Positions 39,389 to 53,931 of a stretch of DNA of 64,000 bases are shown here, piece by piece. Origin of the DNA: Halostagnicola larsenii XH-48 (lineage in GTDB: Archaea; Halobacteriota; Halobacteria; Halobacteriales; Natrialbaceae); the NCBI RefSeq assembly GCF_000517625.1, contig NZ_CP007055.1, forward strand, positions 1,054,001 through 1,118,000. The letters run 5' to 3'. The first letter of the stretch is position 1. Each line of letters starts with the position of its first letter. Both the position numbers and the translations under genes were made by a program. The notes beneath the pieces are model-generated. The model was not told the DNA's origin. It saw only the letters and a list, made by a program, of their open reading frames with translations, and made no database searches.

Positions 39389-39621
39389 GCCGGTTCTGGC
39401 CCTGGGTGCGGAACACCACGATGGTGCGTTGGAGAAAGTGCATCTTCTCGAGGAACGTCATCAGCGCCGACAGTTGGGCGGTACTGTGGTGCACCGTTGC
39501 AGGACAGTCTCAGTGAAAGCTCGAGGTTTGGGTCAAACCCAGTCCGGGGAACGCGGGTCTACCCCGTTTCTGCTCGTCAAAATCCCAATAGTATAAGTGA
39601 CTACCCGACAACAATCAAGAT

Positions 39622-39720
39622 AGAAACCGCGCTTCAACCAGCCGCGTGGGGCATGCGCTGAAATGCCCCGGGTGCAAGGACACCCGAGGCGCGGTTTCTA
39701 ACCCGCGAGGGTTCGAAACC
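39622..39720 (+). ncRNA. Candidate structured RNA: three-way junction plus GNRA hairpin
   Basis: Three helices are visible by eye. An outer 11-bp stem AGAAACCGCGC (39622-39632) pairs with GCGCGGTTTCT (39689-39699). Inside it are a 7-bp hairpin GGGGCAT/ATGCCCC (39648-39654, 39663-39669) and a 5-bp hairpin GGGTG/CACCC (39670-39674, 39681-39685). Immediately after is AACCC-GCGA-GGGTT (39700-39713), a stem capped by a GNRA tetraloop. Perfect pairing over this length is improbable by chance. The GNRA loop favours the plus strand, but a good TATA box faces it from the other side. It may be a free RNA or the right end of a decayed IS200/IS605-type element. Confidence 0.5.
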
Positions 39721-39743
39721 ATGATTACGTTCATTCTACCGAG

Positions 39744-39751
39744 ATATAAAC
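39744..39751 (-). promoter_or_regulatory. TATA box between candidate RNA and zinc-ribbon gene
   Basis: TTTATATC on the minus strand, about 25 bp from the end of the hairpin cluster, would start a minus-strand transcript through it. Read on the plus strand (GATATAAA) it could instead serve the 51-aa gene with a leader of about 45 nt. Direction unresolved. Confidence 0.35.
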
Positions 39752-39818
39752 GTCTCGCACGACAGCCGTACCGCTATCAACTAGCCGGCGCTCCCAGAAA
39801 ACTGCGCTCGAGGGGTCT

Positions 39819-39974
39819 ATGAGCGGGCAACCATCTGATCCGGACGACCGCGAATCGTCGGCACTGCCAGCCTGTCCGCGGTGTGGGACGCCCGTCGCCT
39901 TGGTCACGAGCCGCGGGCCGACAGAGCACATCTGCTCGCCGTGTGGCTGTGAGGTCGGTTCGCCTGATCTCTGA
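39819..39974 (+). CDS. 51-aa zinc-ribbon micro-protein
   Basis: Reads MSGQPSDPDDRESSALPACP and continues with RCGTPVALVTSRGPTEHICS and then PCGCEVGSPDL. Two CPxCG-type knuckles (Cys19/Cys22 and Cys39/Cys42, plus Cys44) spaced by 16 residues make a one-zinc ribbon. Haloarchaea have many such tiny zinc-finger proteins, some affecting swarming and biofilm formation. Target unknown. Convergent with the secreted-protein gene 47 bp beyond its stop. Confidence 0.7.
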   Translation: MSGQPSDPDDRESSALPACPRCGTPVALVTSRGPTEHICSPCGCEVGSPDL

Positions 39975-52228: not shown

Positions 52229-53931
52229 CTCGAGAGATGCCCCGTCGCGAGTACACGGACCTGTTCGGCGCGACGGAAGATGACCGGGTCAGGCTCGGCG
52301 ATACGAACCTCTTCGCGGAAATCGAGAACGATTACGGCGTTCCCGGCGAGGAAGCGGTGTTCGGCGGCGGAAAGACGATGCGCGACGGGATGGGCATGCA
52401 GTCGGGGACGACCCAGGCGGAGGGAACGCTCGACTGGGCCTTTACGAACGTCGTCATCATCGACCCCGTACTGGGGATCTGCAAGGGCGATATCGGGGTT
52501 CGCGACGGCGAAATCGTCGGCGTCGGCAAGGCCGGCAACCCCGACACGATGGACGGCGTCGACATGGTGATCGGACCGAGTACGGATACGATTCCGGCGG
52601 ACGGCCTGATCGCGACGGCCGGCGCCCTCGACATTCACGTTCACTTCAACAGTCCCCAACTGATCGAACACGGACTCGCCTCCGGTATCACGACGATGCT
52701 CGGCGGCGGCTTCGGCGGCGGCGCGACGACCTGTACGCCCGGCCCGCGGAACGTTCAGCGATTCCTCCAGGCCGCAGAGGAGTGGCCGATGAACGTCGGC
52801 TTCTACGGGAAGGGCAACAGCAGCCGGCCGGACGCACTGTACGAGCAGGTCGAAGCAGGAGCGTGCGGACTGAAGCTCCACGAAGACTGGGGGTCGACGC
52901 CCGCCGCGATCGACACCTGTCTCGAGGTCGCCGACGAGGAGGACGTACAGGTCTGTATCCACACGGACACGCTCAACGAGTCGGGATTCGTCGAGGACAC
53001 GTTCGACGCCATCGACGGGCGCACGATCCACGCGTTCCACATCGAGGGCGCGGGCGGCGGTCACGCGCCCGACGTCCTCGAGCTCGTCGGACACGAGCAC
53101 ATGCTCCCCTCCTCGACGAATCCGTCGATGCCCTACACCGAGAACACGTTCGACGAACACCTCGACATGGTGATGGTCTGTCACCACCTCAACCCCGACG
53201 TTCCCGAGGATGTCGCGTTCGCCGAATCGCGGATTCGCGCCGAGACCCTCGGCGCGGAGGACGTCCTCCACGATACGGGTGCGATCAGCATGATGACCTC
53301 GGATTCGCAGGCGATGGGCCGTATGGCCGAGGTGCTCAGCCGAACCTGGCAGACCGCCCACAAGATGAAAGCCCAGCGCGGGCCGCTCCCCGCCGACGAG
53401 GGGACCGGGGCTGACAACGCCCGCATTAAGCGGTACGTCGCCAAGTACACCATCAATCCCGCGATCACGGCCGGTATCGACGACTACGTCGGCTCGCTCG
53501 AGCCCGGAAAACTGGCGGACATCGTCCTGTGGAAGCCCGCGTTTTTCGGGGTCAAACCGAAGGCGGTCATCAAGGGCGGGTTCCCCGTCTGGTCCCAGAT
53601 GGGCGAAGCCAACGGCTCGCTCATGACCTGTGAGCCGATCATCGGACGCGAACGGGCCGGCGCACAGGGTCGAGCCAAGCAGGCGCTTTCGGTCTCGTTC
53701 GTCAGCGAGGCCGCCTCCGAGAACGGCGTCGGGGAGGCGTACGACCTGAAAACGCCGGTGCGGCCGGTGAGCGGGACGCGGTCGGTACGCAAAGCAGACA
53801 TGGTCCACAACGACCGCTGTCCCGACGACATCGACATCGACGCACAGACGTTCGAAGTGTCCATCGACGGCGAACACGTCACCTGCGACCCGGCCGACGA
53901 GGTGCCGCTCGCACAGCGATACATGCTTTGA
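52225..53931 (+). CDS. ureC: Urease subunit alpha (catalytic)
   Basis: 568 aa, the normal length. Nickel ligands and active-site residues are in place: His138/His140 (ALDIHVHF), carbamylated Lys217 (GLKLHEDWG), His in [11 protein letters not shown], His in [12 protein letters not shown], the flap Cys-His ([10 protein letters not shown]) and Asp in [10 protein letters not shown]. The amidohydrolase converts urea to ammonia and carbamate. Start is ATG overlapping ureB. The gap to the next structural gene, ureA, is occupied by a 39-codon ORF. Confidence 0.96.

Follow-up and report, generated by a model that had tools for sequence, protein, structure and literature searches.

Many haloarchaeal mRNAs are leaderless, and to our knowledge few natural structured regulatory leaders are known in haloarchaea. 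That RNA structure masking the start region can regulate translation in Haloferax has been demonstrated with synthetic riboswitches (PMC8241225), and translational coupling of overlapping genes by termination-reinitiation has been described in archaea, with 13 of 14 overlapping pairs tested in H. volcanii and E. coli being strictly coupled (PMC6728339). Haloarchaea also encode C(P)XCG zinc-finger micro-proteins (PMC11241148, PMC6562870), of which Brz regulates bop expression in Halobacterium (PMC2253796), and carry array-less CRISPR derivatives, termed HRAMP (PMC8730458, PMC12669027).

The element described here lies in a 64,000-nt stretch of the Halostagnicola larsenii XH-48 genome (hereafter, the window) and resembles riboswitches and protein-binding leaders of the ribosomal type in its 5′ position, compact conserved head, predicted mutually exclusive helices and a stem predicted to sequester the start. 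In contrast to them, it has no Rfam match at a useful score, no known ligand and a hypervariable head loop, and it is found in many copies per genome, before zinc-finger genes. With the archaeal coupled pairs it shares an ATGA overlap, seen in 80 of 96 copies with a recognised ORF2, but its ORF1 is short, sits behind a structured leader, and is conserved as RNA in its most conserved part. The product of ORF2 has the two Cys pairs and the size range (50-100 aa) of the C(P)XCG micro-proteins; it represents a CPxCG...PCGC subfamily, in which the motif always spans 26 residues and which carries a common leader. No common leader before zinc-finger genes was found in the C(P)XCG literature searched.

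Fold and promoter of the leader

The first-pass annotation had proposed four helices between positions 39622 and 39720, and all of them were recovered there with a stability far beyond chance, the minimum free energy of the plus strand being −54.3 kcal/mol as compared to −36.9 ± 3.6 kcal/mol in dinucleotide shuffles (z = −4.85; none of the 200 reached the native value). The perfect 11-bp outer stem proved to be part of a 15-bp P1, and the 7-bp hairpin, the 5-bp hairpin and the stem with the GCGA tetraloop are all present (Table 1). P1 encloses P2 and P3, yielding a three-helix conserved head of the riboswitch type within a 5′ UTR. In an alignment of 71 diverse sequences, which was fitted to the model and with which an independent MAFFT alignment agrees, cells changed on both sides of a pair numbered 50 in P1 (shuffled maximum 18), 49 in P2 (maximum 24) and 10 in P3 (maximum 3), the P3 stem being paired in 100% of cells. 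The earlier view of a folded RNA is therefore supported by both structure and covariation across many genomes, and this comparative evidence shows that P1 with its enclosed P2 and P3 is a selected RNA structure.

Table 1. Features of the leader and the two-ORF unit, in window coordinates.
Feature	Position	Strand	Remarks
TATA box TATAAG	39592..39597	+	promoter of the unit; start predicted near 39617-39622
P1, 5′ strand	39621..39635	+	GAAACC core at 39623-39628; GGAAGCC in most relatives; from fold and covariation
P2 hairpin GGGGCAT/ATGCCCC	39648..39669	+	arms 39648-39654/39663-39669; loop ends in conserved GAA; covariation
P3 hairpin (C)GGGTG-CAAGGA-CACCC(G)	39670..39685	+	arms 39670-39674/39681-39685; stacked directly on P2; loop 39675-39680
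P1, 3′ strand	39686..39700	+	GGTTTC core at 39693-39698; common to P1 and the rival stem
ACCC-GCGA-GGGT hairpin	39701..39712	+	becomes 11-bp stem when P1 is open
Pre-start strand GAAACC	39715..39720	+	rival partner of GGTTTC 39693-39698; adjoins ATG
ORF1, 33 aa, MITFILPRYKRLARQPYRYQLAGAPRKLRSRGL	39721..39822	+	stop overlaps ORF2 start; same start position in most relatives
P5 hairpin CGAGA-TATAAACG-TCTCG	39740..39757	+	inside ORF1; codon-position pattern and pair exchange
ORF2, 51-aa zinc finger CPRCG...PCGC, MSGQPSDPDDRESSALPACPRCGTPVALVTSRGPTEHICSPCGCEVGSPDL	39819..39974	+	start overlaps ORF1 stop (ATGA)

Readings of the leader as coding sequence did not hold up. The P3 loop, which may have 6 nt (84 copies) or 7 nt (65 copies), breaks any frame running through the leader, and the stems covary; a KCPGC reading of P2/P3 does not persist in relatives (L018), and a putative conserved ORF0 beginning from ATGGAAGCC is interrupted, as read by eye, in the sister copies L073 and L074.

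Two TATA-like elements had been reported on either side of the fold. The plus-sense one, placed at 39590, is real: over about 150 copies, TATA-like words occur at −28 (115) and −29 (65) from the element start and almost nowhere else within 60 bases, and at such a fixed distance P1 should mark the beginning of the transcript, a start site predicted from the usual archaeal TATA-to-start spacing. The minus-sense one (39744-39751) coincides with the loop of the P5 hairpin inside ORF1, and is not evidently a promoter. The description of the region as intergenic was incomplete, as the element constitutes the 5′ UTR of a two-ORF unit which that annotation did not include. Taken at the level of sequence, these features show the element to be an mRNA 5′ leader that starts at the expected transcription start, and being the leader of a coding mRNA, it is not best read as the stand-alone RNA suggested earlier.

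A second partner for the P1 3′ strand

The 3′ strand of P1, which reads GGTTTC here and GGCTTC in the majority of relatives, fits two partners, namely the GAAACC of the P1 5′ strand and the GAAACC preceding the start codon. Across lineages, the pre-start bases track the P1 3′ strand, with GGC accompanied by GCC in 97 of 104 cases, GGG by CCC in 26 of 35, and GGT by ACC in 11 of 11. The rival duplex has an energy of −7.8 to −8.9 kcal/mol with its own partner, as opposed to −3.8 to −5.5 kcal/mol with pre-start strands swapped in from lineages with a different P1. When the P1 5′ strand was blocked in silico, the leader in the window refolded into an 11-bp hairpin abutting the AUG, and over 159 copies the mean unpaired probability of the 6 nt before the ATG fell from 0.43 to 0.20. 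By these comparisons, a second conserved partner of the P1 3′ strand is shown to lie immediately ahead of the start codon, and the two predicted folds are mutually exclusive.

P1, with a mean duplex energy of −19.6 kcal/mol, is much more stable than the rival stem, and the leader in the window folds at −61.3 kcal/mol with P1 closed versus −52.8 kcal/mol in the rival conformation, so that either a strong trigger would be needed or the rival fold would be only transient. Some subfamilies, in which the pre-start bases read GTTGCC, have a rival stem that is short or discontinuous, and in fixed alignment columns the percentage paired in outgroups is no better than in shuffles because the register shifts. 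In three copies of family f17 (L088, L092 and L096) the leader precedes SWIM zinc-finger genes, and the P1/pre-start pairing is changed to GGTCTTC/GAAGACC, slightly interrupted in L092.

We consider it likely that the element is a conserved, structured, bistable 5′ leader that controls how a short operon is translated. In the P1-closed state, the bases before the ATG would be free and ORF1 would be translated; with P1 open, they would be buried in the 11-bp hairpin and translation would fall. Ribosomes finishing ORF1 would re-initiate on the overlapping zinc-finger or HalOD1 gene, and one switch would therefore set both ORF1 and ORF2. A candidate ligand or protein would probably make contact with the P2/P3 head, whose stems are invariant, the encoded zinc finger being one possible protein contact (autoregulation). 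Candidate factors that might open P1 or hold it include a ligand, the zinc finger itself, salt and temperature.

Copies of the leader and the genes behind it

A BLAST search with the region yielded four near-full and eleven partial copies in its own genome, as well as hits in 34 of 100 related genomes, every one from the same family, Natrialbaceae. R1, a covariance model based solely on the leader, identified 15 strong copies in the Halostagnicola genome and matches in 100 of 391 genomes of the class Halobacteria, some of them weak, including some outside the family. Several genomes have ten or more matches, with up to 15-18 copies per genome, and the model reaches Actinarchaeum, YIM isolates and Halocatena, where three genomes each gave 12-18 matches; a search of 148 genomes from the phylum gave no matches outside haloarchaea. 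Against the 4227 Rfam families, the whole window yielded no match at the gathering threshold in this region, and a local search with the element up to E = 10 returned chance hits only. The Rfam/Infernal and BLASTN comparison that had been recommended thus gave covarying homologues in many haloarchaeal genomes and no Rfam match. The only Rfam match in the window is 5_ureB_sRNA on the minus strand at 52378-52671 (54.7 bits, above its gathering score), which probably represents conserved urease coding sequence rather than that RNA. A degenerate copy of the leader on a smaller replicon (L083, C3:8739-8858 in the same genome; 27 bits) retains nothing but its 3′ half and the first 13 codons of ORF1. 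A virus origin was considered and rejected: there was no match in the phage collection, and two pattern matches in IMG/VR were not borne out by the covariance model. No description of the leader family was found in the full-text literature searched, and its novelty is likely rather than proven.

ORF1 has no Pfam or NCBIfam family, and its conserved stretch P-R/G-Y/H-K-R-P/L-A resembles a peptide motif. In codons 7-13, differences at codon positions 1, 2 and 3 number 1643, 1181 and 179, the reverse of what protein selection produces, and in codons 14-18 they number 2367, 2548 and 2495; conservation of the peptide with synonymous change was not seen anywhere in codons 7-18. Since codons 7-13 vary at the first two positions and hardly at the third, RNA constraint outweighs protein constraint there. 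In the P5 hairpin, A-U and G-C are exchanged at one pair (18 and 16, respectively, as sequence counts). It is probable that the short ORF1 is translated and that what is conserved in it is RNA; the peptide itself may be dispensable.

ORF2, on the other hand, shows 18817, 18264 and 26683 differences by codon position, the third being the most variable, as is normal for coding sequence. A zinc-finger or HalOD1 gene directly follows ORF1 in 96 of 160 copies, and in 80 of these 96 it does so at −4, the overlap taking the form ATGA or GTGA. ORF1 is itself Cys-rich in 35 further copies, leaving about 29 of the 160 in which neither a zinc-finger nor a HalOD1 gene was recognised downstream. Of the 15 copies in the Halostagnicola genome, ten have a HalOD1-like ORF2, most of them fused to a zinc finger, although the Pfam match behind the HalOD1 assignment falls below the curated cut-off. 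In one subgroup (L026, L055, L116, L144, L174 and L194), an ORF1 of the MxAYPLPRHKRLAR type extends for about 60-300 codons and there is no recognisable zinc-finger ORF2; these copies may be decayed or may form a different kind of unit.

The P3 loop, HRAMP operons and competing readings

In an RNA that is otherwise nearly frozen, the P3 loop occurs as 105 different sequences in 150 copies. Copies in which the next 90 nt are at least 97% identical have only 44% of loop letters in common; the 102-nt leaders L087 and L102 are identical except for the P3 loop, and the orthologues L122 and L145 from neighbouring species, with elements 99% identical, differ in it as well. All 65 of the 7-nt loops have a purine at position 6, most have T at position 2, and the 3′ side is purine-rich. 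Judged from these patterns, the loop is constrained in type and free in letters. Uniqueness through avoidance was not evident, the identity rate being 0.0044 within genomes and 0.0058 between them; loop inversion was discarded, as paired loops are not reverse complements. The 7-nt loops resemble anticodon loops, but their middle triplets, which carry A at the wobble place, do not match archaeal anticodons, and loops of 6 nt are more common.

The outgroup copies L090 and L093 precede a gene that reads like a diverged Cas7, and a search with this Cas7-like protein matched 29 of 100 genomes. All ten HRAMP-type loci that were fetched carry the leader, the terminal ATG of the model being the start of the zinc-finger gene preceding the cas7-like gene, with leader scores of 14-27 bits, several of which are weak and the lowest of which would not be significant by itself. 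The HRAMP-type operons that begin with the leader include L090, L093, L236-L245 and L248. Of these, L248 was followed gene by gene; besides a RAMP-family protein, whose 17.0 bits fall short of the 22.1 cut-off, it encodes a Cmr3-like protein, an RNase H-like nuclease and an HNH protein. Its gene content fits the published description of HRAMP; all ten operons, where a RAMP-family gene follows the zinc finger, start with the leader, and the Cmr3-like and HNH genes are confirmed in L248 only. The leader is nevertheless far more widespread than HRAMP, and mostly precedes unrelated small genes.

These observations bear on the notion of a trans-acting or guide-like RNA, in which the transcript or a piece of it binds a RAMP-type complex or another protein with the P3 loop as its address. 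The presence of the element at the head of 10 of 10 HRAMP-type operons, a system with no known RNA partner, would fit it, as would loops that are unique in 15 of 15 copies within the Halostagnicola genome and turn over much faster than the remainder of the leader. Yet the same protein search detected no HRAMP cas7 in this genome or its genus, despite the 15 leader copies, so the leader is not restricted to HRAMP genomes; moreover, the loop has only 6-7 nt, its complements are not enriched within −200 to +500 of its own locus, and the strict position before a start codon fits a role in cis. We regard a guide-like function as improbable, and give similarly little credence to the broader proposal that the family forms an RNA system in which each loop is a unique address read in trans by protein or RNA, HRAMP complexes included; if that were true, the leaders would be programmable sensors for defence and zinc-finger genes. 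Slightly less probable still is an element acting at the DNA level, either a palindromic repeat in dispersed copies or a recombinase core site, with CGGGTG/CACCCG as the arms and a variable overlap of 6-7 bp between them. Copies are indeed dispersed and inverted arms do flank a variable centre, but the strand asymmetry of the loop, the covariation of the P1 strands on either side of it, and the fixed TATA spacing and gene order, which fit transcription, all argue otherwise. The derivation from the right end of an IS200/IS605 element (omega-RNA), or a domesticated relic of one, put forward in the first-pass annotation, has practically no chance of being correct. It drew on the presence of hairpins and on the resemblance of ETAL to a TnpB C-terminus, and the frame in question, IETALQPAAWGMR, is not kept in homologues: in L012, P1 mutates to keep the pairing and not the peptide. 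Inspected copies are followed by small zinc-finger or HalOD1 genes and have a conserved promoter, with no tnpB upstream; the genome has three intact tnpB genes, located on C3 and C5, replicons other than those carrying the 15 copies (C1 and C2). There is no variable guide at the 3′ end, conservation running on through ORF1 and ORF2. A tnpB fragment on C2 (377113-377223; 30 bits, under the cut-off) lies about 1.4 kb from a copy, on the opposite strand and pointing away, and is probably incidental.

The most serious competitor, although an unlikely one, is a structured leader without a switch, whose fold would shield the 5′ end or determine the stability of the mRNA or its basal level of translation, and in which the pre-start complementarity would arise as a by-product of repeated GAAGCC motifs. 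The strong thermodynamic preference for P1 is consistent with it, and neither a ligand nor a regulator is known. What speaks for the bistable leader instead is that the pre-start trinucleotide follows the P1 3′ strand (GGC/GCC, GGG/CCC, GGT/ACC) in separate lineages, which a by-product need not do.

A leader family that is absent from Rfam and precedes genes for zinc fingers, HalOD1 proteins and HRAMP-type systems would define a post-transcriptional regulon, and would bring under common control the zinc-finger micro-proteins, which are largely uncharacterised. That so variable a loop should sit within a nearly frozen RNA is odd and open to testing, and through its link to HRAMP the leader provides a first RNA lead for this array-less CRISPR derivative.
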